A stretch of DNA of 36,129 nt from a virus, in IMG/VR virus record IMGVR_UViG_3300009008_000124, positions 1 to 36,129 of that record; one strand, written 5' to 3'. Position 1 is the first letter of the stretch. Each line of letters opens with the position of its first letter. The notes beneath the pieces were generated by a model. That model made no database searches. It had not been told where the DNA came from and was given only the letters and a program-made list of their open reading frames with translations. This document shows, in pieces, positions 3,763-18,598 of this stretch. The translations under genes were made by a program, and so were the position numbers.

Positions 3763-3796
3763 TTTCTTACTCCTTTTTTCTTGGTTTCTTGTTTCC
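3763..3796 (-). promoter_or_regulatory. Reused 5' leader with AAGGAG, copy 1 (SSB-like gene)
   Basis: On the minus strand this reads as repeated GAAAC/CAAGAA blocks followed by AAGGAG and then a purine-rich TAAGAAA run to the ATG. Very similar leaders precede the genes starting at 9446, 10334 and 10713. Confidence 0.6.
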
Positions 3797-3818
3797 GTTG
3801 CCGCCTATCGGCCCCGAA

Positions 3819-3847
3819 AATATACGCTCAAATGCGTTTTTTTACAA
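3819..3847 (-). promoter_or_regulatory. Sigma70-like promoter for the SSB-like/polymerase genes
   Basis: On the minus strand TTGTAA (3847-3842) and TATATT (3824-3819) are separated by exactly 17 nt. The -35 lies in the last codons of the helicase gene and the -10 just after its stop. The predicted start would give a leader of about 50 nt including the AAGGAG. It matches consensus at 4/6 and 5/6 positions. Confidence 0.55.
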
Positions 3848-6435: not shown

Positions 6436-7896
6436 TTATTTTGCTCCTTGGATAATGCGCCCGTTTGCGCGGTACATGGGTTCCAGCACATCCAAAAGAA
6501 AGCGCCCCATTACGCTGTCTTTAGAAACGAATAATTTTGTGGGAAGGGGAAGCCTTCCGTGTTCAATCTCAGCTTTCAGCGCCGAAGCCACCATTTTCAA
6601 ACCCTCGTTGTACGCTGGCAACGTGTAATGGACACCCTCTTTTTTGAAAAAGAGATCTGCCAACGGCTGTATCACTTGATCCTGAAAGATTACCGTTTCG
6701 TTATGCGGTAGGCAGTCGATGAATAAAGTGGGTGTCATGTAGTCTCTGTGGAACCCTGCCTCTGCCACTGGCTCTGCCACGGGCTCTAGTGTGGGCTCTT
6801 CCACTGGCTCTTGCGGTAGCTCAACCCCAGCATCGATCATCAAACAAACATCATCAAGGACCATCTTTCTTGTGCTCTTTGCTTCGCCGTCCCAGCCCAC
6901 GGCTGCATCTTTTTTTCTAGGATACATATATTTCCACGTTGCCACAAGCTCATCTTTCTTGAGCTTTCGCACTGTAGCCTTCGCAATCTTAGCTACCTTC
7001 TCGATAGGCTCTGGCTCAGGCTCTGCGGGGCTCTCAGGCGCATCGGGTGGATTGAGCCCAGCGCAAGAAAGCTCCTCCTCTTTGACTTCTTGTTCTTTGG
7101 TTTCCTCTTTGACTTCTTGTTCTTTGCTTTGCATCGCCCAAAACTGATCCATGAACTTTTCTCCTTCTTTTCTTGCTACGTTTTCAAATTTCCCCGCACG
7201 CGCACAATGCGTGCGGAAGTCACATCCACCGTAATCACCGCACGCTGCGGTGTTGACGGGGATCTCCATCATTTCCATCTCTGTTGTTCTTTTCATGTTT
7301 GCAAGCACAGGTAAAACGTGCTTGTCAAAGCCCGTGCGCACTTCATCGGGGCTCTGCCAGCACTCTACCGGCTTGATTCGCCGCGCCCCCTTGGTTTGAT
7401 AATAGATGTGGCGAAATGCAACATCTCCATCGCCACCCCAACGCTCCACCGCGTCGAACAAATACACGCGGCTTTGAAAATCGAAAATCAGATCTTCTGA
7501 GGTGAGCGCGTACCTTCCTATGTCGCTGCTGGTTTTATGGTCGATGACCATTCTCCAATAGGGGATGTCGAGATCGATTTTGCCAACAATCGGCACGATG
7601 TCGGTTTCGATTCTCACCGCCCGCTCAATGTTTTCGAGCTTCAGCGGGAGATCGGGAAGGAGCCCGCTTCCAACGATCCCTTTTGTGATCTCGTTGAGAT
7701 CGTCGGGGTCATTGTGTATAGCGTAACGCTCCAAGCCTTCGTGGCACTCCGTGCCTAGCGCGAGGGCTGGCCGCTCTCGCATCTTGAGCCCGTACATATA
7801 CATCCAAGCCCACATCATTTCGCACCTTGAAAATGTTTTGAGCTGGCTTGCGCTTGCGTGCTTCCAATCCTTCCTTTCGTATAGCTTTTCAATCAT
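6436..7896 (-). CDS. Cas4/AddB-like PD-(D/E)XK nuclease with Fe-S cysteines and C-terminal extension
   Basis: The N-terminal 235 residues form a RecB/Cas4-type nuclease: SQLKTFSRCE with C25, H52 (GTECHEGLERY), D108 (GKIDL), and D119-x-K121 (IDHKTS). Cysteines C219, C225 and C231 with C25 give the four-cysteine Fe-S arrangement of Cas4/AddB nucleases. It probably has 5'-3' exonuclease activity in recombination or end processing. There is no Cas1/Cas2 or CRISPR array nearby. After residue 250 come KEQEVKEE repeats, an E/P-rich linker, a basic segment (about 305-345), a second PVAEP-rich linker and a C-terminal domain of about 105 residues that I do not recognise. The extension makes it about twice the usual Cas4 length. 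Confidence 0.85.
   Translation of the reverse strand: MIEKLYERKDWKHASASQLKTFSRCEMMWAWMYMYGLKMRERPALALGTECHEGLERYAIHNDPDDLNEITKGIVGSGLLPDLPLKLENIERAVRIETDIVPIVGKIDLDIPYWRMVIDHKTSSDIGRYALTSEDLIFDFQSRVYLFDAVERWGGDGDVAFRHIYYQTKGARRIKPVECWQSPDEVRTGFDKHVLPVLANMKRTTEMEMMEIPVNTAACGDYGGCDFRTHCARAGKFENVARKEGEKFMDQFWAMQSKEQEVKEETKEQEVKEEELSCAGLNPPDAPESPAEPEPEPIEKVAKIAKATVRKLKKDELVATWKYMYPRKKDAAVGWDGEAKSTRKMVLDDVCLMIDAGVELPQEPVEEPTLEPVAEPVAEAGFHRDYMTPTLFIDCLPHNETVIFQDQVIQPLADLFFKKEGVHYTLPAYNEGLKMVASALKAEIEHGRLPLPTKLFVSKDSVMGRFLLDVLEPMYRANGRIIQGAK
6725..6759. repeat. 35-bp element shared with a tail gene, copy 1
   Basis: This stretch inside the nuclease gene matches 24689-24723 inside a tail protein gene at 32 of 35 positions by eye. 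Both copies are read in the same frame and encode FHRDY-x-TPT. Confidence 0.75.
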
Positions 7897-8257
7897 GGGT
7901 GTCCTCCAGTTTCAGCAAGCCGTTAATCAAGCAAGATCTGAGAATTTCAGCGCGTGTGGTTTTGCTCCGATCTGCGATTTTCTGGGCTCTATCGATCAAC
8001 CACACGGGCAGGCTCACAGAGACGTGCTTTTGTTGATCGGTGATCAACAAATCTTGAAAAGGGGCAGCTTTCCGCAACACAGAATTTGCGTTTTTTTCCT
8101 TGTCTCTCAGCCCCTGCAAAATCGCTATGCGCATCACCACAGATCGCGTCATCTGTCGCAGAATCACTAGGTCTTCGTCGAGCGCCATTTTTACTGCCAG
8201 CGCATCTGCTCTCTTGATTGTTGCCTTATTTATTCGGAATCCCGTTGTCATCATCAT
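7889..8257 (-). CDS. Tandem ribbon-helix-helix DNA-binding protein
   Basis: This 122-residue protein appears to hold two RHH units. The first (about 4-50) has strand TTGFRIN, helix ATIKRADALAVKMAL and helix TRSVVMRIAILQGL. The second (about 78-116) has strand HVSVSLP, helix VWLIDRAQKIAD and helix TRAEILRSCLINGLL. A single chain with two units could fold as a pseudo-dimer. It starts within the stop of the zinc-ribbon RHH gene (ATGA) with GGAGG 7 nt upstream, and its end overlaps the nuclease start by 8 bp. It probably acts as a repressor or DNA organiser of this region. Confidence 0.65.
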   Translation of the reverse strand: MMMTTGFRINKATIKRADALAVKMALDEDLVILRQMTRSVVMRIAILQGLRDKEKNANSVLRKAAPFQDLLITDQQKHVSVSLPVWLIDRAQKIADRSKTTRAEILRSCLINGLLKLEDTHD

Positions 8258-8750: not shown

Positions 8751-9446
8751 TTATATTCGTTCCATTAAAAATCTGGCGTCTTCTTTGCTCAGACCTGCTC
8801 TCAATAAATACTCGTAGTCTGTGTTATTGTGTCTTCTGTGTGCCCCTATTGCGAGACACAAAGAATGATAAAATTCCATCTCACCCTTGCTCTTCTGCCA
8901 AAAGTGCATCACTCCTTTATTTTCTAAACTATAGCGCAAGGCTCTATAGGCTTCTCGCAACCAATTTCTATTCGCTTCATCTACATTATAGAGGCATTCG
9001 ATCAAGAGAATGGTATATCGATCCATAGGAAGACCGATCTGCTTTGCTTTCCTTCGTAAACGCTCCCTTCTCTTCTCAGCCTCAACTGCTTTTTTCTCAG
9101 CATCGCAGATAGCTTTAGCTCTCTCCTCTTTGTATGCCTTAGTTTTTCGCTTTGCAGCATTTTTCTTCTTAGCCTTCTCGCTTTCTCTTTTGCTTTTCGC
9201 AATCAATCTAGCAAGCAAAGGCAACTGATCTGTATGTATGATGGTTGTGAGCTCGGGCTTCCAGCCTCCTCTGGTTTTATTGAAACCGTCCATACGCTCA
9301 TACGTGTAAATTCGCCCACTGTTCAGAGCATAACGCACATGCTTGCTTCTCTTGTTTTCTTCAAAGTTGATCCATCCCTTTGGGATGTTTTTTGACTCCA
9401 CATTGCCATAGGAATTTTTTAAAAGTTTATATTTCTTAGGTGTCAT
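8751..9446 (-). CDS. Unknown protein with basic coiled-coil middle
   Basis: I do not recognise this 231-residue protein. Residues about 1-80 are mixed with several aromatic residues (GWINFEE, RIYTYERMDGF). Residues about 82-140 form a very Lys/Arg/Glu/Ala-rich probable coiled coil, and the C-terminal 90 residues are helical (MDRYTILLIECLYNVDEA). The basic helix could bind nucleic acid. It is preceded by the reused leader (9447-9481) and by a pseudoknot-like element further upstream. Base use is A-richer than in the flanking nuclease and regulatory genes. Confidence 0.7.
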   Translation of the reverse strand: MTPKKYKLLKNSYGNVESKNIPKGWINFEENKRSKHVRYALNSGRIYTYERMDGFNKTRGGWKPELTTIIHTDQLPLLARLIAKSKRESEKAKKKNAAKRKTKAYKEERAKAICDAEKKAVEAEKRRERLRRKAKQIGLPMDRYTILLIECLYNVDEANRNWLREAYRALRYSLENKGVMHFWQKSKGEMEFYHSLCLAIGAHRRHNNTDYEYLLRAGLSKEDARFLMERI

Positions 9447-9481
9447 TTTTCTTCTCCTTGCTTTCTCGTTTTCGTGGTTTC
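9447..9481 (-). promoter_or_regulatory. Reused 5' leader with AAGGAG, copy 2
   Basis: On the minus strand it reads GAAACCACGAAAACGAG, then AAAGCAAGGAGAAGAAAA and the ATG. It is closely related to the leaders at 3763, 10335 and 10714. Confidence 0.6.
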
Positions 9482-9485
9482 GTGT

Positions 9486-9514
9486 GCCGCACTTTGCCCC
9501 GTGCGGCTTGGGGG
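9486..9514 (-). ncRNA. Pseudoknot-like intergenic RNA element, copy 1
   Basis: On the minus strand the order is CCCCC, AA, GCCGCAC, GGGG, CAAA, GTGCGGC. The 7-nt arms GCCGCAC/GTGCGGC pair perfectly, and their loop begins with GGGG that can pair with the upstream CCCCC. This is the A-B-A'-B' order of an H-type pseudoknot with loops of 2, 0 and 4 nt. The second copy is at 9884-9912. It may be a 5'-UTR regulatory structure for the gene starting at 9446 or a processing/terminator-like structure. Confidence 0.55.
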
Positions 9515-9526
9515 TTGGAAAGTTAT

Positions 9527-9592
9527 TTAGTTGCAGACAACAAAGCTGATGTCTGCCTCCACCTTCAAATATTTGATTACTTTAACGTCCAT
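9527..9592 (-). CDS. Possible 21-aa peptide gene
   Basis: ATG at 9592 overlaps the preceding TAA (TAATG) and has a strong GGGAGG 6-7 nt upstream, embedded in the last codons of the previous gene. The frame is 21 codons, MDVKVIKYLKVEA and eight more residues, and stops at 9527 just before the pseudoknot-like element. The initiation signals are better than those of many accepted genes here, but the product is too short to judge by composition. It may be a leader peptide or simply a translated spacer. Confidence 0.35.
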   Translation of the reverse strand: MDVKVIKYLKVEADISFVVCN

Positions 9593-9843
9593 TAAATTCC
9601 TCCCTTATTTATTCCGTGATTACCGTCAACCTCGCAATAATGTTCGAGGCAGAAGTCGTGGATCGTTTTTTCAGTGTCCTGATCGAGATGCCAAGTATTC
9701 ACGACGTCCCCTTTGTAAGACACATCGTACTGCTCCCACAGGGCTTGTACGAAGCGTTTGTATTCTCCCTTTCGATCACCGTCATTTTTAATCCGCAATA
9801 AGTCGTACAATTTGTAAAATTCTTTAAAATCTTTTCTGCTCAT
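9592..9843 (-). CDS. Small acidic/aromatic protein, unknown
   Basis: The start is set at ATG 9843, which has GGAGGG 5 nt upstream; the longer frame to 9882 begins in a duplicated 27-bp segment and lacks a ribosome binding site. The 83-residue product (MSRKDFKEFYKLYDLLR) is rich in Tyr, Trp, Asp and Lys. No domain is recognised. It belongs to the cluster of small early proteins next to the leftward promoter, where phages commonly keep host-takeover factors. Confidence 0.65.
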   Translation of the reverse strand: MSRKDFKEFYKLYDLLRIKNDGDRKGEYKRFVQALWEQYDVSYKGDVVNTWHLDQDTEKTIHDFCLEHYCEVDGNHGINKGGI

Positions 9844-9856
9844 GTTAACCCTCCCT

Positions 9857-9883
9857 TCCCACTGGTTTGTGAGCAATTCCATC
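9857..9883. repeat. 27-bp direct repeat, copy 1
   Basis: It is identical to 9931-9957. The two copies flank the second pseudoknot-like element. This copy is an orphan of the 3' end of the 9921-10334 gene and begins the non-functional N-terminal extension of the next frame. Confidence 0.9.
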
Positions 9884-9912
9884 GCCGCACTTTACCCCGT
9901 GCGGCGTGGGGG
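9884..9912 (-). ncRNA. Pseudoknot-like intergenic RNA element, copy 2
   Basis: On the minus strand the order is CCCCC, AC, GCCGCAC, GGGG, TAAA, GTGCGGC. It differs from copy 1 (9486-9514) only in the unpaired bases, while all paired segments are kept. It lies directly after the stop of the 9921-10334 gene and about 40 nt before the next start at 9843. Confidence 0.55.
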
Positions 9913-9920
9913 TTGAATTG

Positions 9921-10334
9921 TTATGCCAGCTCCCACTGGTTTGTGAGCAATTCCATCTCTGCGTCGTCAAGTTCGTGCCCACTGGCAATGATGTCGCCAG
10001 CGGAAAACGCCTCTGCGAGGAGCGAGATGAGAAGGCTGGGCTGGTCGCCCAAATCTACGCCGCCGCACTCCATGCGACACTCTTCCACCTTCGAATTGTC
10101 GATGACGCGCAAGGCGTCGGCCAGCTCTTCGGCTTCGGTGAGATCACTAAAGTAGTTTGTCCACCATGCAAACGTGTCCTCATCGCACACGAACGTGTCC
10201 TCATCGCTGTCATATCTAAAGTGGGGATTGTTCCACACCTCGATCATGTGAGGAGACAAGTCATAACCGTCTACAATGTAGTCCAGCCTACCGTCGATAG
10301 TACCTTTATCTGATTTCTTGATTGTTACTTCCAT
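9921..10334 (-). CDS. Acidic small early protein, unknown
   Basis: The start at ATG 10334 (MEVTIKKSD) is chosen because AAGGAG lies 9 nt upstream in the reused leader; the frame extends to 10418 without support and would overlap the previous gene. The 137-residue product is strongly acidic, with DEDTFVCDEDTFAWW produced by an in-frame 21-bp duplication. High acidity is common among phage anti-host or DNA-mimic proteins, but nothing specific identifies one here. Its last codons include the 27-bp repeat. Confidence 0.7.
   Translation of the reverse strand: MEVTIKKSDKGTIDGRLDYIVDGYDLSPHMIEVWNNPHFRYDSDEDTFVCDEDTFAWWTNYFSDLTEAEELADALRVIDNSKVEECRMECGGVDLGDQPSLLISLLAEAFSAGDIIASGHELDDAEMELLTNQWELA
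9931..9957. repeat. 27-bp direct repeat, copy 2
   Basis: It is identical to 9857-9883 and forms codons near the end of the 9921-10334 gene (EMELLTNQWE). Confidence 0.9.
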
Positions 10335-10362
10335 TTCTTTCTTCTCCTTGTTTTCTTGGTTA
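10335..10362 (-). promoter_or_regulatory. Reused 5' leader with AAGGAG, copy 3
   Basis: On the minus strand it reads AACCAAGAAAACAAGGAG, then AAGAAAGAA and the ATG. It matches the leaders at 3763, 9447 and 10714. Confidence 0.6.
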
Positions 10363-10380
10363 GGGGTGCTTAGAGCTGGG

Positions 10381-10713
10381 TTACTGAAGTGCGCGCAATA
10401 GGTTTTTGGCTTCCGCAACTACCGCGAGAGTTGCCTCTTCTAGCGTTGGAAAACGCTTCGGATATTGGGGATCGCTGTTTAAATTAAAATTTTGGTAGTG
10501 TCCAACCAAGCGTGGTGAGTAGCCTATGACGGTTGCTTTCCACCCACCAATGGTTTTTCCGATATGTGTTCGCACATTTATTGCCCCCACACTTTGCGCT
10601 GCCATTAGCGCGGCACAATGGTCTAGTTGTTTTTTTATTTCGGGGAACCGCTTGCATAATCTCGCCCATGCTGCCCAATCTTTCTTATCCATATCGACAT
10701 TTTTTATAAGCAT
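10381..10713 (-). CDS. Unknown small early protein
   Basis: This 110-residue protein has an N-terminal helical half (MDKKDWAAWARLCKRFPEIKK) and a beta-like second half (GGWKATVIGYSPRLVGHYQ). It is the first gene after the promoter at 10783-10811 and carries the reused leader with AAGGAG. The segment IGKTIGGWKATVIG has a superficial GKT but no Walker A context. No family is recognised. Confidence 0.7.
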   Translation of the reverse strand: MLIKNVDMDKKDWAAWARLCKRFPEIKKQLDHCAALMAAQSVGAINVRTHIGKTIGGWKATVIGYSPRLVGHYQNFNLNSDPQYPKRFPTLEEATLAVVAEAKNLLRALQ

Positions 10714-10744
10714 TTTCTTTCTCCTTGGTTTCTCGGTTTCTTGG
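10714..10744 (-). promoter_or_regulatory. Reused 5' leader with AAGGAG, copy 4
   Basis: On the minus strand it reads CCAAGAAACCGAGAAACC, then AAGGAGAAAGAAA and the ATG. It is the longest-matching member of the leader family. Confidence 0.6.
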
Positions 10745-10782
10745 GCCTCTGCCCCCGTTGACGCTCCCGCGCTGACAAAACG

Positions 10783-10811
10783 ACACTACATTTGTAGCGT
10801 TGTTGTGTCAA
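10783..10811 (-). promoter_or_regulatory. Second leftward early promoter with operator half-site
   Basis: On the minus strand TTGACA (10811-10806, full consensus) and TAGTGT (10788-10783) are separated by 17 nt. The -35 is inside TTGACACAA, the same nine bases that form an arm of the operator at 11795-11819. A 12-bp imperfect palindrome CTACATTTGTAG (10786-10797) overlaps the -10 and spacer. The leader to the gene at 10713 would be about 65 nt. Control by the regulator encoded at 11867 is inferred from the shared arm. Confidence 0.6.
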
Positions 10812-11008
10812 CTCTTTTCTACGCGGAAAACCGCTTTTTGCGCATAAGATGGTGTTTTTACACAAAAACTTTTTTTAGAAATTTTTTGGGGGCCTTCTGA
10901 GCTGCTTGATTTTGGTCGTTTTTACGTGCTTTTTTGAAAAAACCTGGGAGTTGTAAGGGGTTGGAAACGCTTGGGAAAACGGTTTTTTCAGGCGGGAATT
11001 AAGGGTTT
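10812..11008. other. Non-coding A/T-rich stretch between early genes
   Basis: No supported gene lies between the stop at 11009 and the promoter at 10783-10811. The stretch is rich in A and T runs. On the plus strand it contains two weak hairpin-plus-T structures (GCGG/CCGC with T5 at 10823-10839, and GTTTTT/AAAAAC with T7 at 10854-10876), but their stems are only 4-6 bp. On the minus strand no terminator is clear, so the upstream transcript may read through. Confidence 0.5.
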
Positions 11009-11425
11009 TTACTGAGATCGCCTCTCTTTTGCTATGGCTTCCGCGTTTTTGTTCTCTGCGAGGGGGTTCTCGCGCTCCCACCATTTTTCGACACACGCTT
11101 GCAGATCTGCTGCGTGCGTCGAGCAGAATTTTAATTGGGTGTCGCCAAAATCTCGAAAGTGGGCACCCGTGCCGTCGATGTCGCCAGGGCGCAGCGTCAA
11201 AAAGGCCATCGCCACCTTTACGATCTCTTTGTTGCTTTTTGCCTCATGCGGCACGCAAAAGTCAATGCCCCCAAAAATGGGTGTCGGTTTGTCTTGTGTA
11301 ACGTCGTCCAGCCGATAGCCCAGCACAGACTGAGCGCCACGCTGTTCTTGGAGATCGTATAGCTGCAAGCGGAAGCTATACCCTTTTTTGGTTGTCCATA
11401 TATTTTCGTGCAGCAAATTACTCAT
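11009..11425 (-). CDS. Unknown early protein
   Basis: The start is taken at ATG 11425 (MSNLLHENIW), with AAGGTG 8 nt upstream and an 8-bp overlap with the previous stop (ATGAGTAA). The 138-residue protein has a beta-like first half (GYSFRLQLYD, PIFGGIDFCVPH) and a helical C terminus (TQLKFCSTHAADLQACVEKW). No family is recognised. It is second in the leftward operon from the divergent promoter. Confidence 0.7.
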   Translation of the reverse strand: MSNLLHENIWTTKKGYSFRLQLYDLQEQRGAQSVLGYRLDDVTQDKPTPIFGGIDFCVPHEAKSNKEIVKVAMAFLTLRPGDIDGTGAHFRDFGDTQLKFCSTHAADLQACVEKWWERENPLAENKNAEAIAKERRSQ

Positions 11426-11753
11426 TTTCAGACACCTTATTTTTCTCCATGCGCCAGAGCATCTCAACGGTGAGCGGATCGGAAATTTTCGTTAGCGTGA
11501 AACTTTCTGCGCGATCATCAAACGCAGCCACCATTTTCTTCGATCTGATAGAGCCCGTCAACTCCACCTCCTCGTCTTCCTCAAGCCACGCTTTGCGCAC
11601 TTCTCCCGCCCGTATGCGCGCCGCACGCTCTCCCGCAAATACCTCTTGTGACTCTTCGCGCCGCCCGTCACTGTGCTGCACAACGCGCACAAAAAGATGC
11701 GCTACGCCAGATTTATTGTTCCCCCTAAAAACATTTTCTAAAAAATCTCTCAA
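11418..11753 (-). CDS. Unknown first gene of the leftward early operon
   Basis: This 111-residue charged protein starts at TTG 11753, 5 nt after AGGGGG; no in-frame ATG exists nearby. It has two alternating beta-like segments (GVAHLFVRVVQ and EEVELTGSIRSKKMV) and is rich in Arg and Glu. It follows the leftward promoter at 11775-11803 after a predicted leader of only about 15 nt. Position suggests an immediate-early or regulatory role; no domain is recognised. Confidence 0.65.
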   Translation of the reverse strand: MRDFLENVFRGNNKSGVAHLFVRVVQHSDGRREESQEVFAGERAARIRAGEVRKAWLEEDEEVELTGSIRSKKMVAAFDDRAESFTLTKISDPLTVEMLWRMEKNKVSENE

Positions 11754-11774
11754 AAGCTCCCCCTTTTCAACGCT

Positions 11775-11803
11775 TTAAAATGTAGCACTTTTTCTTGTGT
11801 CAA
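11775..11803 (-). promoter_or_regulatory. Leftward early promoter
   Basis: TTGACA at 11803-11798 is a full-consensus -35. The -10 is TTTTAA (11780-11775) at 17 nt spacing or TTTAAA at 18 nt, both moderate. It diverges from the rightward promoter, and the two -35 boxes lie in opposite arms of one palindrome. Confidence 0.6.
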
Positions 11804-11819
11804 GCAGCACTTGACACAA
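11795..11819. promoter_or_regulatory. Shared operator: perfect 10-5-10 inverted repeat
   Basis: TTGTGTCAAG (11795-11804) and CTTGACACAA (11810-11819) are perfect inverted repeats around CAGCA. Each arm includes a TTGACA -35 box facing outward. One dimeric repressor bound here would block both promoters. The nearest candidate is the HTH protein encoded at 11867. Confidence 0.8.
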
Positions 11820-11839
11820 AGTTTTTTTGCCATAAAGAT
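11811..11839 (+). promoter_or_regulatory. Rightward early promoter
   Basis: TTGACA at 11811-11816 is a full-consensus -35. The -10 is weak (AAAGAT at 17 nt or TAAAGA at 16 nt). The start point would lie about 20 nt upstream of the regulator ATG at 11867. The weak -10 could make it subordinate to the leftward promoter. Confidence 0.5.
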
Positions 11840-11866
11840 TGCTCGGTTATTTTTGGAGAAAAAGCA

Positions 11867-12079
11867 ATGCATTTGGAAAATTATTTAAAGCGGGAAAATT
11901 TAAGCAAGGCACGCTTTGCGCTCAAGCTAGGGGTAACGCGGGAGGCCGTTAGCGCGTGGTGCCGAGGTGACTATTACCCTAATTTGAAAAATTTGGTGGC
12001 TATAGAAAAACTGACGAAAGGCGTTGTGTTGCCAGAGTCTTTTTTTGTGGAAGAGGAAAACGAAAAGGGGGCAGCGTGA
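11867..12079 (+). CDS. Cro/CI-like HTH regulator
   Basis: This 70-residue protein has a helix-turn-helix at about residues 13-36: helix 2 ARFALKLG, turn VTR, recognition helix EAVSAWCRG, followed by helices typical of the Cro/XRE fold (NLKNLVAIEKLT). An acidic tail ends the protein. The ATG at 11867 is chosen over the longer TTG frame from 11795 because GGAGA lies 7-8 nt upstream and the longer frame would cover the operator. Its stop overlaps the primase GTG (GTGA). It probably autoregulates through 11795-11819. Confidence 0.8.
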   Translation: MHLENYLKRENLSKARFALKLGVTREAVSAWCRGDYYPNLKNLVAIEKLTKGVVLPESFFVEEENEKGAA

Positions 12080-14418
12080 CAGCAGTGGCAAAAGACAAAG
12101 TGGTGGTGTTAGCAAAACGGAATTTTGCGGGATGGGATGGGGGTGAAGATTTAAAAAATATTCAAGCGCATCAAGTGATGCCCATCTTATGGGCGCTCAA
12201 GCGAAAGTATTCGACAGACGCGCATTTTGCTCCGTACTTCGTACGCCAGCTTGGCGGGCAGGTTCCAACGTGCGTCCCACGGCTCAATAAACCCGCGCTG
12301 CAAACGCTGAGAAAAAGCGGTGCAGATGTGTTTTTTGGCGTCGTGAGCGTAGACGTGGACGACGAGATCGCGCACGCAAACAAGACGCCAGCGCGCCAAC
12401 AGTGGCGCGATGAACAAGACGACATTTATGGCAATTTGCCACACATATTTTTGGACGGTATGGCACGCTACGATACACGCGGAGGCTACCGTCTTTTGTG
12501 GACGCTGCCAAAACCGCTCACGGTTGAGCAGTACGTTGCTTTCGGGGCCGCGTTACGCGAGGAGCTGCGATGGTACGGGGTTGAGTGTGATGAGAATTGC
12601 GCGGAGTGGAACCGCCTCTACCGCTTGCCGTTTGTTGTGCGTGATGGCGTAAAACAAAATCTTGATTTTGATTTTGACGGCTTGGGGCCGCTTCGATGGG
12701 TGCCGGAGGGTGGCATAGTTGAAGCTGCGCCGAAGGTTGTTAGCGACGCACCACCCGCGCCCGCGTCCCTTTCCCGTGCAGATGAAACGCGGCTTGTGGC
12801 GGCTTTACAGCGCATTCCATCCGATACAAACGAAACGTGGGAGCCCGTGTGCCGTGCTCTCCACCATCAGTATGAGGGGAGCGAACGCGGCTGGCAGATT
12901 TTGGACGCTTGGTCACAGCGTAGCGAAAACTACGACGAAGAGACAAACCGTAGGCGGTGGGATTCTTTTGCGGTAGGCCACGCCGAGCCCACAACCATCG
13001 GCACGATTTTCTTTTTAGCGCAAAAACACGCGCCAAGAGTTGTTGACGAGGATAGGGGCGTTCGGATCGAGAACACAGAGGAGTTCCGTTTTCGCCTGGG
13101 GAGCGAGGTTGAGATAGCAAAGAACGCGATGGGCGAGATTGAAAAAGAAGCGGGTGCGAACATCGTAGCAGACAGAACCAAGCTGTGGCGTTACGCGGAG
13201 CCCCTGGGCGTCTGGAAAGAGCTTGAGAAGCACACTGTTGATCGCATCGTGCATAGCTTTGACGGAGAAGATATTTATCAAGGGTTGAAACAAAACGGTG
13301 AACCGAAAATTTCCAAGCTCAAAATTAGTAACAACATATGCACAGGTGTTGCAAAGATCATCACATCGCAAAAAGCCGTGCCTGATTTTTTTGACGGCGC
13401 GGAAGATGGGATCGTGTTTCGAGATCAGTTTGTGCGTGTCACGAAAGATGGTGTGTCCCTCGAACCCGTGAGCCCCGAACACAGACAAACCGATTATCTC
13501 AGTTTTTCTTTTGTCCCTGGGGCGCGTCCGGCGCGGTTTTTAAAGATGCTGCGCGAGTGCTGGGAGGACGAAGAAGACGTAGAAGATCGCATACAGCTTT
13601 TACGTGAATGGGTGGGTGCTGCTTTGTGCAACAAGGCAACACAGTTTCAGCAGGGGTTAATCCTCTACGGTGATGGGAAGAACGGGAAAAGCACGGTGCA
13701 AGATATTGTGACAGCCTTGTTTCCAAGAGAAACCTTGACGGCGATTGCTCCGCAGGAGATGCAGCAGGAGTATAGGCGTGCGCTTTTGAGCAGATCGCGT
13801 TTGAATTGCGTTTCAGAGCTTCCCGAAGCCGATATTTTAGCGGCTGAGTCCATCAAAGCCGTGATAGATGGATCGGTCATTTCTGGGCGCTGGATCCGCG
13901 AAGCTGTTTTTTCGTTTCGCGCAAAAGCTGCGCACCTTTTTTCCGCAAACTCGCTTCCAGGTGTCACCGATCACAGTTTGGGCTTTTGGCGTCGATGGAT
14001 CGTTTTGCGTTTTGATCGCGTTTTTAAAGATCATGAAATAGATCGAAACTTAGCTAAAGACATTGTTGCAAACGAACTGCAAGATATCGCATCTTGGGTG
14101 GTGGAGGGTGCCGCTAATGTTTTGCAGCGGGGCGGTTACACTGCGCCGAAAAGTGCTCAAGGTGCGCTTGAGGAATGGCGGCATCAAGCCGATCAAGTAT
14201 CTGCGTTTGTCGATCAACGTTGCGAGATGGAGGGACAGGAGCAAGCCACAAAACTGTACAACGCCTATTGCCACTGGGCGATCCAAATGGGGCACCGCAA
14301 AATGTCGTCACCCAAATTTCTGAAACGGCTTTTGAGGCTGGGCGTCGAGAAGAAAAGAACGAAGAATGGAACGCTGTATGGTTTGTCGATAAAAAAGAAC
14401 ATTGCACTTGTCATCTAG
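12076..14418 (+). CDS. Primase-helicase: AEP primase, PriCT and D5-like SF3 helicase
   Basis: This is a 780-residue replication initiator. The N-terminal archaeo-eukaryotic primase/primpol domain shows SVDVDDE (91-97, metal ligands), GGYRLLWTLPKPL (136-148) and NRLYRLP (179-185). Residues about 235-320 match a PriCT-2-like linker (TWEPVCRALHHQYEGSERGW, YDEETNRRRWDSF). The C-terminal D5/P4-type SF3 helicase has Walker A GDGKNGKST (532-540), Walker B-like LNCVSELPE (576-584), SANSLP (623-628) and GFWRRW (636-641). A winged-helix-like tail follows (about 700-775). It would prime and unwind at the phage fork. It starts with GTG overlapping the regulator stop. Confidence 0.92.
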   Translation: MTAVAKDKVVVLAKRNFAGWDGGEDLKNIQAHQVMPILWALKRKYSTDAHFAPYFVRQLGGQVPTCVPRLNKPALQTLRKSGADVFFGVVSVDVDDEIAHANKTPARQQWRDEQDDIYGNLPHIFLDGMARYDTRGGYRLLWTLPKPLTVEQYVAFGAALREELRWYGVECDENCAEWNRLYRLPFVVRDGVKQNLDFDFDGLGPLRWVPEGGIVEAAPKVVSDAPPAPASLSRADETRLVAALQRIPSDTNETWEPVCRALHHQYEGSERGWQILDAWSQRSENYDEETNRRRWDSFAVGHAEPTTIGTIFFLAQKHAPRVVDEDRGVRIENTEEFRFRLGSEVEIAKNAMGEIEKEAGANIVADRTKLWRYAEPLGVWKELEKHTVDRIVHSFDGEDIYQGLKQNGEPKISKLKISNNICTGVAKIITSQKAVPDFFDGAEDGIVFRDQFVRVTKDGVSLEPVSPEHRQTDYLSFSFVPGARPARFLKMLRECWEDEEDVEDRIQLLREWVGAALCNKATQFQQGLILYGDGKNGKSTVQDIVTALFPRETLTAIAPQEMQQEYRRALLSRSRLNCVSELPEADILAAESIKAVIDGSVISGRWIREAVFSFRAKAAHLFSANSLPGVTDHSLGFWRRWIVLRFDRVFKDHEIDRNLAKDIVANELQDIASWVVEGAANVLQRGGYTAPKSAQGALEEWRHQADQVSAFVDQRCEMEGQEQATKLYNAYCHWAIQMGHRKMSSPKFLKRLLRLGVEKKRTKNGTLYGLSIKKNIALVI

Positions 14419-14465
14419 CTTGCAAAAGTGTGCTGAGATGCGCTAAATTGCGATCTGGAGGTGTC

Positions 14466-14729
14466 ATGGATAAAGACCAGTTTCACGATTTTTTGGGCGC
14501 ACACGAAAAAAATTTGGGTGCGGATTTTGTTAACAGATGGAAAGCGTTTTTCAACACCCTTCAAACTGCTAACAGGCTTTTCAAAAGTTGCTTTGATTCG
14601 ACGGGGCCTGGAAACCCAGGCGAGATGCAAGGAACGCTTTTGCTTGCGAAGATGCAGCAGGAGATGGAGCTTGCGCGTGAGCGCGTGGACATTCAGCGGG
14701 AAAAGATCTTGGAGGTTGACGGTGAGTGA
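14466..14729 (+). CDS. Small helical protein, unknown
   Basis: ATG 14466 has GGAGG 4 nt upstream; a longer frame to 14175 lies within the primase gene and is not used. The 87-residue protein has an N-terminal helical region (FVNRWKAFFNTLQTANRLF) and a C-terminal amphipathic helix (MQQEMELARERVDIQREK). It ends inside the next gene's start (8-bp overlap). It may be a partner of the downstream HTH protein; function unknown. Confidence 0.7.
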   Translation: MDKDQFHDFLGAHEKNLGADFVNRWKAFFNTLQTANRLFKSCFDSTGPGNPGEMQGTLLLAKMQQEMELARERVDIQREKILEVDGE

Positions 14730-14991
14730 TTTACACAATTTAACAAAAGCACTCGGAATAGATCGCGTTGCCGAAATTTTGGGGATATCCGACAGGAGCT
14801 TGATCGACATGAGATCGGGACGAACGCCGATCACTGTTGACGATCTGTACGAGCTAGAAAAGAGCTTCCCAAATTTCGACTTGGAGGGAACCGTTCGCCG
14901 TATCGGGGCCGTGAGGGAATCCAAAGGAGTAAACAGAAGAAGCAGAGAACGAAGAAAACCAACGGAGGAACAAAATGAGTTCAACGAATAG
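14722..14991 (+). CDS. HTH DNA-binding protein
   Basis: GTG at 14722 has GGAGG 6 nt upstream and overlaps the preceding gene by 8 bp. Residues about 6-45 fit a helix-turn-helix: GIDRVAEILGISDRSLIDMR, then RTPITVDDLYELEKSFP, the pattern of XRE-type domains. The C terminus is basic (RRSRERRKPTEEQ). It overlaps the methyltransferase start by 17 bp. It is a second regulator candidate in the rightward operon, perhaps for late control. Confidence 0.65.
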   Translation: MSDLHNLTKALGIDRVAEILGISDRSLIDMRSGRTPITVDDLYELEKSFPNFDLEGTVRRIGAVRESKGVNRRSRERRKPTEEQNEFNE

Positions 14992-15514
14992 GGGCGCGGT
15001 TCGCGCTCCACACGATTTTTACCGCACGCCGAAATGGTGTGTTGATTCGGTGTACAAATATTTAGATTTACCCAAGCCAACTTTAGATCCATGTTGTGGC
15101 GATGGCGCTTTGCTCGGTGTTGCAGGAAGCCACACAAGAGGGATTGAAATTCAAAAACACTTAGCTCTTGACGCGATGCAGAGGGGCTACAATGTGCGGA
15201 TTGAAAACGCGCTGGAACGAAGCTGGGAGAATGAGCACATCGTGATGAATCCACCGTTCAAAGACGCTATGACCTGGGTTGAAAAGTCCGTCACAGAAGC
15301 GTTGAGCACCCTTGTGCTCTTACGCCTCGGCTTTCTCGCAAGCAAAAAAAGAAAGCCCTTCTTTGATCGTTACGTTCCTCAATACATGGCGGTGCTATCA
15401 AAGCGCCCGTCTTTTACGGCCAAAGGCACAGATAGTGCAGACTATTGCTGGCTCTTTTGGGATCGCAAACTGATAAATCTAAAACGTGACACCCAAATTG
15501 TTTGGATCGGCTAA
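14975..15514 (+). CDS. Phage DNA adenine-type methyltransferase
   Basis: This 179-residue class I methyltransferase shows DFYRTPKW (14-21), the SAM-binding motif I DPCCGDG (38-44), an acidic end of strand 2 (GIEIQKH) and catalytic motif IV NPPF (92-95), the form used by N6-adenine enzymes. It is small, without a visible target-recognition domain, so it may act on short sites or with low specificity. GGAGG at 14964-14968 supports ATG 14975. It could protect phage DNA from host restriction. Its TAA overlaps the stop of the convergent 58-aa gene. Confidence 0.85.
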   Translation: MSSTNRGAVRAPHDFYRTPKWCVDSVYKYLDLPKPTLDPCCGDGALLGVAGSHTRGIEIQKHLALDAMQRGYNVRIENALERSWENEHIVMNPPFKDAMTWVEKSVTEALSTLVLLRLGFLASKKRKPFFDRYVPQYMAVLSKRPSFTAKGTDSADYCWLFWDRKLINLKRDTQIVWIG

Positions 15515-15687
15515 GACGTAACGAAAACCCGTTCACCTGCCGCTGGGGCCGGGGTGGCTTTGACGGTTTGTTGGGTATCGAAAAGAACCAACAACACATC
15601 CCCGCCGTCTAAAAGTTGTTTCACGTATGCGGCTTGTGCATCGCTGTCCACCGTGTCGAAAAAAGCGCCTGTTGTTCCCACTGTCAT
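15511..15687 (-). CDS. 58-aa protein downstream of the tail fibre, unknown
   Basis: ATG 15687 has AGGAGA 9-10 nt upstream and follows the fibre gene after 14 nt. The frame of 58 codons begins MTVGTTGAFFDTV, has a hydrophobic GGDVLLVLFDTQQTV segment and a P/A-rich stretch, and ends RVFVTS. Its TAG shares two bases with the TAA of the convergent methyltransferase. It could be a small tail or fibre accessory protein. The short beta-like pattern DVLLVLFDTQQTVKATP resembles carbohydrate/tail add-on modules only loosely. Confidence 0.65.
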   Translation of the reverse strand: MTVGTTGAFFDTVDSDAQAAYVKQLLDGGDVLLVLFDTQQTVKATPAPAAGERVFVTS

Positions 15688-15701
15688 TTTTTAATCTCCT
15701 A

Positions 15702-18164
15702 TCATAATCCCGAAACCGTAAACGTGATTGTTGTGCCAGCCACTGTCACATTGCCACTTGTTTCTGCTGTCAATGTCGCGGAATAATCATCGTTCGCGGT
15801 GATCGGAATTGTCACGTCTGGCTCTGAAGCCGTTGTGTTGTTTGCGGTAAATTTTACGCCCGTATTTGGAACGTCAGATACATCGAGATCCCACGTTGCA
15901 TAATCGGATCCAATGTTGATCACTGTCGCTAAATTTACGGACGTTGCTGCCACAACATCAGTATTCACCGTAGCGGTAAGCACTCCACCAACCGCAATTG
16001 TCGCTCCAGGTGGCACAAGCCCAGAAGCGATCCCGTCAATACTTGACCATGTTTTTGTTGTTGTGACGGAAAACGCTGCCGCTGTACCTCCACCACCACT
16101 GTTAGGAATTGTCACAATCTCGTATTGATCAACTGGAGGAGTAGCTGTGCTTTTCCCGATGATTAATATTTCAGTATCTGCTGACGGAGAAGCTCCGATG
16201 CCCCAAGCGGTGCCAACGCTTGTGTCGCCCGACAAAGTGATTTTGTTATCGCCACCAACTGTGATCGGACCATCAAACAACGTACCTTTAGCATTTGCGG
16301 GAGTTGTAGGTGCTGTCGGCCTTAAACCGATGGACGTAGCAGGACCGCCGTTGTGGAAGTTCATCACAACATCTGAATAAAGAGTCGTTTGACTTCCTGT
16401 TTTTGCGACTCCTGAATTGTCGTCGGCGGCAATGATGAATGGATCTGAAACCCGGTAGCCTGCTTGTTGTTCGAGCGGCAACCCTGTCGCTGCATCTGTC
16501 CATTCGATGGCATAAATGGCGTCCCATAAAACTTGATTACCTGTGACGTTTGCCCCGCTTGCTTGGAACGTGTATCCGCTGGGCCAAGTCCCTGCTGACC
16601 ATGTGCCGTTCGCATACCAGTCCAAGGCATCGGCATGATCGGAAATAAAATAGCCACCCGTGTAATTGAATTTCCAGTGTCTTGCATAATTGAGCCCCGT
16701 CCACCCCAACTGGTTATAGCTTGGAAAGATGGTCTCTGACTTGAAGACATCACCCGCTGAATAATTAACACCTTTGAACGTAAGCGCAGATCCTAACTTG
16801 CCGTATACCGTCAACTTGAAATTTGAATCGGTGGTGTAACTACTGTACGAGAAGTAAGCAGGAAAAAGGTGGACAACGAGCCCACGGTTGTTAGGCTGTC
16901 CAGGTGAGGCCCAGTGATCTGTGTATCGTGAGCCATACCCGCTTTGTGTGTATGTGCCGTTGACTGTTGCGCGAGTTAGATTTGTCCCATAAATCGTGGT
17001 CAGCGCATAGCTCGATATTTCAACTATATTTTGTTGCGTAACGACTGTTGGACTTTGCCACACTTTCACATCGTCTAAGTATCCCCTGTCCGTTCCGAGG
17101 CTCAAAAGATTGTCTTTCGTGTATACCCACCTGAAATGATATGCACCCGGCTGTTGCACAACGTATTGCACTTTGTGGAAAGGCGCTTCTTTATCTACAA
17201 ATCCAGAAATTTGCAAAACAGTATGGCTCACGCTGTCAGGATCGACGACAACAAAAGAAAGAAAATCCTTTTCTTCTTCTGAAGAAGTGGCCCACTGGAA
17301 AGAGATCACATCATTTGTGGCAAGCGTCCCAGCGTTATAATCAAGCCACGATGTTTGATTGCTTCCCACATCCCCACTTCCAAGCGCGGCTGTGGGCGAG
17401 GCGTAGCCTATGGTTCCGTCACTTTCCACGCCTGTCGCAAGCCAGTCTGCATCGCCTCCGGTTGTAAAAGTATTCGGCGGCGCATCGAGGGGCGACAAAG
17501 CACCAAAGTCCTCATCAAAGAGCCCGGTATATGTGGATGAATCAAAAGAAGTCGCTTGATCCATCAAAACGGTAAACAAAAAAGATCCACTCTGCGGTGC
17601 ATCGGGCGGGTTGATCGCTACGATTTGAATATACGCGCCGCCTTCTTCAATCTCAACATGACACTGCCTTTGACCTGTGCCTTTTTGCCCCAATTGGATC
17701 GTGTTTGCCGTGGCAAAACTACCGTTAGCTTGATTATAGGAGTAGCTACAGGAGAGGCCCGATGGCGGGTAACGCTCCGATGATAAAATAACACCGTCCG
17801 CGTCCGCGTCTACCCCGCCGAGCGGCAAAATACGAACGTGGGTCACATCGCCCGTTATTGCTACGCTCCCCGAAGTCAGAAATGGATCTTCGACGTAGAT
17901 CTCAAATCCGCGCAAGATGCCTTGCGGCACATGCACTTGCGCTACAACAATCGGGACGCCCGTGCTTTCGCTTTCGCCCCCCCAGCCGCCAGCCGCAAGC
18001 TTGTAATAGCTGACATACGGTGTTGTGGCTGTCCTAATGTTTGCGACACGTAGATCTACCTCGTCAAATCGGCTTGATATGTCAACACCGTCGATGGTGA
18101 CGCCAGCACCTAGCTCGCCTGTGTTCGTAATTTTCTCACCCTTGCCGGGTCTAATAGTGGCCAT
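15702..18164 (-). CDS. Large tail fibre / receptor-binding protein candidate
   Basis: This 820-residue protein is beta-rich, with Gly, Ser, Thr and Asn in abundance and no catalytic motif. Residues about 215-375 look like a jelly-roll lectin-type domain: a buried SWLDYNAGTL segment, DVISFQWATSS, and closing GTDRGYLDDVKVW, a pattern seen in concanavalin-like and MAM-type folds. A Tyr/Trp-rich middle (about 400-560) and a C-terminal Ig-like repeat region (about 690-820) follow. AAGGAG precedes ATG 18164. Position at the distal end of the tail module and composition point to host recognition; the receptor is unknown. Confidence 0.7.
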   Translation of the reverse strand: MATIRPGKGEKITNTGELGAGVTIDGVDISSRFDEVDLRVANIRTATTPYVSYYKLAAGGWGGESESTGVPIVVAQVHVPQGILRGFEIYVEDPFLTSGSVAITGDVTHVRILPLGGVDADADGVILSSERYPPSGLSCSYSYNQANGSFATANTIQLGQKGTGQRQCHVEIEEGGAYIQIVAINPPDAPQSGSFLFTVLMDQATSFDSSTYTGLFDEDFGALSPLDAPPNTFTTGGDADWLATGVESDGTIGYASPTAALGSGDVGSNQTSWLDYNAGTLATNDVISFQWATSSEEEKDFLSFVVVDPDSVSHTVLQISGFVDKEAPFHKVQYVVQQPGAYHFRWVYTKDNLLSLGTDRGYLDDVKVWQSPTVVTQQNIVEISSYALTTIYGTNLTRATVNGTYTQSGYGSRYTDHWASPGQPNNRGLVVHLFPAYFSYSSYTTDSNFKLTVYGKLGSALTFKGVNYSAGDVFKSETIFPSYNQLGWTGLNYARHWKFNYTGGYFISDHADALDWYANGTWSAGTWPSGYTFQASGANVTGNQVLWDAIYAIEWTDAATGLPLEQQAGYRVSDPFIIAADDNSGVAKTGSQTTLYSDVVMNFHNGGPATSIGLRPTAPTTPANAKGTLFDGPITVGGDNKITLSGDTSVGTAWGIGASPSADTEILIIGKSTATPPVDQYEIVTIPNSGGGGTAAAFSVTTTKTWSSIDGIASGLVPPGATIAVGGVLTATVNTDVVAATSVNLATVINIGSDYATWDLDVSDVPNTGVKFTANNTTASEPDVTIPITANDDYSATLTAETSGNVTVAGTTITFTVSGL

Positions 18165-18166
18165 GA

Positions 18167-18598
18167 TTATGCTCCTTCGTTTTGTGCTTCGCGTTGCTTT
18201 TTGCGCCGGAAAAGCAATTCTCCAACAAGTGATTTTGCTGTTTTCTCTGTGAGTGTCAAACCAATTTCCTGCTTGCCGCCGCGATAGGCCAGATTAAGTG
18301 CTAATGTTTCAAGTTCATCTTGCGACAAATAATCAATCTTGCCTTTCATAATTTCTGCCTTGGTGCAGCTCAGTTGTGATCGTAAATCTTCGTACGAATC
18401 ACGAAGATCGCTCAACACAATTTCAATCGTTGTTTCGCATTCCAGGCACGCGCAGCATCTTCTGTTTCGTAAACGAAAATCAGAAGTCCACCAGCCGAAA
18501 ATTCTTTCACCGGCTCTTATGAGCCAATCTTCTCGTCCTGTGCTGTCGTCTCGGCTGTCAATGACTTTCGTGTCACCGCCGCACTTGACGCACTTCAC
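18167..18598 (-). CDS. NrdR-like zinc-ribbon protein without ATP-cone
   Basis: The start is GTG 18598, overlapping the previous TGA (GTGA); a longer frame to 18697 would lie inside the neighbouring gene. The N terminus KCVKCGGDTKVIDSR strongly resembles the zinc ribbon of NrdR, and the second half NRRCCACLECETTIEI matches its RRxxCxxCxxxFTTxE block (C3, C6, C51, C54). About 20 residues are inserted between the two knuckles. Instead of an ATP-cone there is a helical region with an acidic start and basic end. It lies between membrane lysis genes and a tail fibre. Role unknown: it may be a regulator or a structural zinc protein. Confidence 0.65.
   Translation of the reverse strand: MKCVKCGGDTKVIDSRDDSTGREDWLIRAGERIFGWWTSDFRLRNRRCCACLECETTIEIVLSDLRDSYEDLRSQLSCTKAEIMKGKIDYLSQDELETLALNLAYRGGKQEIGLTLTEKTAKSLVGELLFRRKKQREAQNEGA

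Follow-up and report, generated by a model that had tools for sequence, protein, structure and literature searches.

The DNA studied, a 36,129-base virus contig from IMG/VR, was analysed over its whole length (hereafter the window), and the record is possibly an incomplete fragment. At the contig end, positions 1-76 form a tandem array of 4.8 copies of a 16-bp T-rich unit, TTTTTCTTTTTTTCTG. The subject of this analysis is a 113-bp A+T-rich gap between the start of a leftward gene at 11753 and the start of a rightward gene at 11867, within which lies a perfect inverted repeat. The features of the gap, the first leftward gene and the rightward operon are the following.

11418-11753, minus strand: 111-aa protein, first leftward gene, with a TTG start preceded by AAGGGGGAG
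11795-11819: proposed repressor operator, a perfect inverted repeat (10-5-10), TTGTGTCAAG-CAGCA-CTTGACACAA
11798-11803, minus strand: TTGACA, candidate leftward -35, with a weak -10 candidate TTTAAA at 11779-11774 (18 bp)
11811-11816, plus strand: TTGACA, candidate rightward -35, with weak -10 candidates AAAGAT at 11834-11839 (17 bp) or TAAAGA at 11833-11838 (16 bp)
11867-12079, plus strand: 70-aa Cro-like helix-turn-helix (HTH) protein with an ATG start, proposed ligand and autorepressor
12076-14418, plus strand: primase/helicase of the same operon, its start overlapping the HTH gene end
14461-14991, plus strand: 176-aa protein of the same operon, encoded between primase and methyltransferase, with weak HTH similarity
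14975-15514, plus strand: final gene in the rightward operon, its product resembling DNA adenine methyltransferases (phrog_799, 1.8e-37; Dam below cut-off)

An earlier note on this DNA had described a single perfect palindrome with an outward-facing TTGACA in each arm, and the sequence confirmed the exact 10-5-10 symmetry at 11795-11819, both hexamers (plus strand at 11811-11816, minus strand at 11803-11798) and the adjacent 70-aa reading frame at 11867-12079. The symmetry runs 4 bp past each TTGACA, and the centre of the dyad is 60 bp upstream of the HTH gene start. When 20,000 first-order Markov copies of the 113-bp gap were generated, a repeat with 10-bp arms and a loop of up to 12 was present in approximately 1.1% of them (P ~0.01), and one that also had TGTCAA in its left arm was present in none (0/20,000). 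Over the whole 36-kb window the number of such repeats was unremarkable, with three observed versus ~0.6 expected, the other two being intragenic. The gap has one dyad only, and no second dyad with three or fewer mismatches at a spacing of 5 was found in the window. A possible second dyad at 18304-18328, which had four mismatches (such a site appeared in 1 of 60 shuffles), falls within coding sequence and was left out of the count.

The claim that the palindrome carries both divergent -35 boxes was half supported: the TTGACA hexamers are perfect, but neither direction offers a good -10 partner at normal spacing. Divergent sigma-70 hexamers spaced by 16-18 bp combine a perfect -35 with a -10 that matches at most 3-4/6, and a consensus scan requiring at least 4/6 in both hexamers identified no sigma-70 pair at the palindrome. 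In a promoter weight-matrix scan of 72,198 positions, the rightward pair with AAAGAT ranked 26th and the leftward pair with TTTAAA ranked 12th; these high ranks despite poor -10s arise because the -35 is perfect. Non-standard extended -10 options can also be read from the sequence, TGC-TACATT leftward at 13 bp and TGC-CATAAA rightward at 14 bp.

Profile searches of the 70-aa protein gave a match to HTH_3 above the cut-off (2.7e-9, 37.3 bits versus 23), and matches below the cut-off to P22_Cro (1.1e-4, 22.3 bits versus 30.2) and YdaS (3.8e-5). The closest solved sequences by phmmer were chains of the P22 c2 repressor (E 0.012). A single-sequence AlphaFold model of low confidence (pLDDT 70.6) had five helices; most of its PDB matches were to Cro and XRE-type proteins, but none was significant. 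In viral contigs, the nearest relative found was L225 (42% identity over residues 1-57), which is encoded divergently from a Peptidase_S24-containing protein of 285 aa (CI-type). A cro gene divergent from a CI gene is the usual Cro/CI layout, so the position of L225 supports the Cro-type label for the window protein. As in the lambdoid-type Cro family, the window protein is a small single-domain HTH_3/Cro-C1 protein, and its gene is the first of an early operon that includes replication genes. Two other characters of that family differ here: the gene opposite encodes the 111-aa protein, which had no family match in a profile search, rather than a CI-type repressor, and the divergent gap has its one dyad rather than several related operators. 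No match to Peptidase_S24 or a tyrosine integrase was detected in the 36-kb record, which may be incomplete, with controls positive. A lysis-lysogeny switch is therefore not established for this fragment. The earlier note had called the adjacent protein the obvious ligand of the palindrome; based on the HTH_3, P22_Cro/YdaS-like, P22 c2 and L225 likenesses this is the best-supported reading, with binding predicted from sequence.

The methyltransferase gene downstream was the reason that we considered whether the HTH protein might be a restriction-modification controller protein. This candidate was set aside, as none of the operon's genes was recognised as a restriction gene and tandem boxes appear to be absent. 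Elsewhere in the window, positions 7889-8257 encode a 122-aa protein with a ribbon-helix-helix (RHH/CopG-like) match, which is a second candidate regulator.

The 9-mer TTGACACAA is present in three copies in the window, one in each arm of the palindrome and another on the leftward side.

10803-10811, minus strand: third TTGACACAA, in a 161-bp non-coding gap upstream of the leftward gene 10381-10713; candidate second promoter or half-site

Every copy is intergenic and aimed at a gene, and the probability of a third copy in the remaining gaps by chance was ~0.015. The site at 10811 was the top-ranked promoter of the three in the weight-matrix scan, and there is no -10 common to the three at any normal spacing. 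Such a pattern is more in keeping with a protein site than with plain promoters; the main rival reading is that TTGACACAA may serve this phage as a general -35 extension. The leftward arm probably has one or more promoters besides that of the palindrome. With another promoter-like site at 10811, the leftward promoter at the palindrome would directly serve only three small leftward genes of no assigned function, and silencing of the helicase, polymerase and lysin genes by one dimer therefore cannot be assumed. The earlier proposal that a single bound dimer would switch off the leftward replication/lysin operon together with the rightward primase operon is consequently too broad on the leftward side, where direct control would be limited to the palindrome promoter of the first three genes unless the repressor also acts at 10811.

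Two further observations were made in the leftward arm. A long imperfect inverted repeat, TGACACAACAACGCTACA-AA-TGTAGTGTCGTTTTGTCA (10773-10810, minus strand; 15/18 paired), overlaps the third TTGACACAA and has a strong predicted RNA fold (z -4.2). The leaders at 3763-3827, 9447-9591 and 10714-10874, each before leftward genes, are alike (e.g., GAAACCAAGGAG..AAGAAAATG), which suggests repeated leader units.

The nearest phage records had no DNA match to the window, and no relatives were found by searches with the primase (viral and genome contigs) or the baseplate protein. An alignment built from the DNA polymerase and its MW202816 counterpart led to 51 distant relatives, mostly at 26-43% identity, and a primase relative was present in eight records. 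In L208 (2799-8971) the HTH, primase and methyltransferase genes have the same order as in the window and are followed by a nuclease gene, all co-directional. The L208 HTH gene is preceded by a good sigma-70-like promoter (TTGACG-17-TATAAG), and no palindrome comparable to that of the window was found upstream of its HTH-primase genes. Among the 51 relatives no homologue of the 70-aa HTH protein was detected, in a search that had no positive control. The exact 25-bp palindrome, which the earlier note had suggested seeking in related phages, was absent from the viral and genome collections searched, from which near kin of the window may be omitted. Outside the window its inner 19 bp had two-mismatch matches only, in 11 of the 51 relatives versus 2 for a reversed control pattern, and these were at scattered sequences untied to an HTH gene as far as examined. 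With neither an HTH homologue nor the palindrome in the distant relatives, there is no visible conservation of the switch across the lineage at such a distance. HTH homologues in other phages (L219-L224) have upstream inverted repeats whose sequence is unrelated to the palindrome. A looser pattern, TGTCAAG-N5-CTTGACA, matched many viral contigs, but a large share of these matches belong to another, dispersed palindrome centred on GGAATCC or GGATTCC and do not count as evidence for the operator. The scan for the operator core also showed a dispersed palindrome, CTGTCAAGGAATCCTTGACAG or a close variant, in many unrelated environmental viral contigs (L075-L194).

We consider it probable that the palindrome is the operator for a dimer of the 11867 Cro-like protein, which would repress its own operon and the first leftward promoter; binding, promoter activity and repression at this site are what we infer from the sequence and gene layout. 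A dimer of the 70-aa protein would bind the two-fold symmetric site and so cover both outward TTGACA -35 elements. On the rightward side it would repress its own operon, comprising the HTH, primase, 176-aa protein and methyltransferase genes, and on the leftward side the promoter of the first three genes, the outcome being an autoregulated turndown of early genes in the course of infection. A further target of the protein may be the related single half-site at 10803-10811. We tentatively speculate, as a possibility that we do not favor, that the phage has a lone Cro-type autorepressor without CI, with the dyad coupling primase and early leftward transcription and the 10811 half-site extending control to the rest of the leftward arm. 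If this speculation is correct, the system would be a copy-number-style governor of early genes and not a lysis-lysogeny switch.

A real alternative, albeit an unlikely one, is that the palindrome represents two identical back-to-back -35 elements (TTGACACAA, of phage or host) with no ligand that binds the dyad. That single motif accounts for 9 of the 10 arm bases, its third copy at 10811 precedes a gene without the same inverted partner, and all three sites are within the top 26 of the 72,198 promoter-like positions. However, the tenth arm base is symmetric too, the three sites share no -10, and an HTH regulator gene adjoins the dyad. A further reading is that the dyad is an operator for another regulator, such as a host protein, the RHH protein or a repressor encoded beyond the fragment. 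In its favor are the possible incompleteness of the record and the RHH/CopG-like protein of 7889-8257. Against it, the 11867 gene lies right next to the dyad and belongs to a fitting family, and the usual binding site of a small phage HTH protein is close to the gene that encodes it; we regard another regulator as improbable.

Less credible still is an intrinsic terminator or attenuator on rightward transcripts, formed by the 10-bp stem and the AGTTTTTTTG that follows it. The repeat is the longest-stem terminator-like match in 9400-15800 and has a predicted fold of -12.9 kcal/mol (z -2.5), but its stem is not G+C-rich (G-C pairs 4/10), its T run is offset by AG rather than direct, no rightward gene lies on its left, and it would sit upstream of or within the HTH gene promoter instead of downstream of a co-directional gene. 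That the repeat arose by chance and has no function is the reading to which we give almost no weight: the three such repeats in the window exceed the expected number and the other two lie within genes, but the location of this one in a divergent gap had odds of ~1% and both of its arms contain consensus hexamers.

If the operator reading is confirmed, the palindrome would be a two-way repressible element of very small size, from a myovirus-like lineage that is otherwise unstudied, and a reason to ask what role Cro-type proteins have in phages that lack a recognisable CI. How phage early regulation is generally understood would not change.

One of the closest known systems is that of P22, with its c2 repressor and Cro; the c2 repressor is the nearest solved sequence, and the CAAG-N5-CTTG of the window resembles the AAG-N4-CTT core of the P22 operators. 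The recognition-helix residues differ (GVTREAVSAW in the window versus GVSNVAISQW in P22), and P22 has multiple operators and a c2 gene. L225 (IMG/VR contig 3300030733_000099) shares with the window a Cro-like protein and a divergent neighbor, but that neighbor is a Peptidase_S24 repressor and the gap between the two has a repeated TTGCTTCTAAT rather than the window palindrome. In the CI-MOR switch of phi13 and TP901-1, palindromic operators are likewise located between divergent phage promoters (PMC8516035), but there are three operators and a CI and MOR pair, in contrast to the one dyad of the window. The Cro of PY54, a linear plasmid/telomere phage, binds exclusively one palindromic operator, OR3, between divergent genes (PMC4488713). 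The window has the same combination of a small phage Cro-type HTH protein and one palindromic site between divergent genes, with binding here being proposed; in PY54 a CI-type repressor gene faces cro and the site is 16 bp long, whereas the window has the 111-aa protein opposite, no CI detected and a 25-bp repeat. The description of the locus as an unusually compact switch was thus overstated, because a Cro with a single operator had already been described in PY54. Most likely, the palindrome belongs to an ordinary type of phage switch, here compact and with a single site, of which PY54 Cro is a known example.
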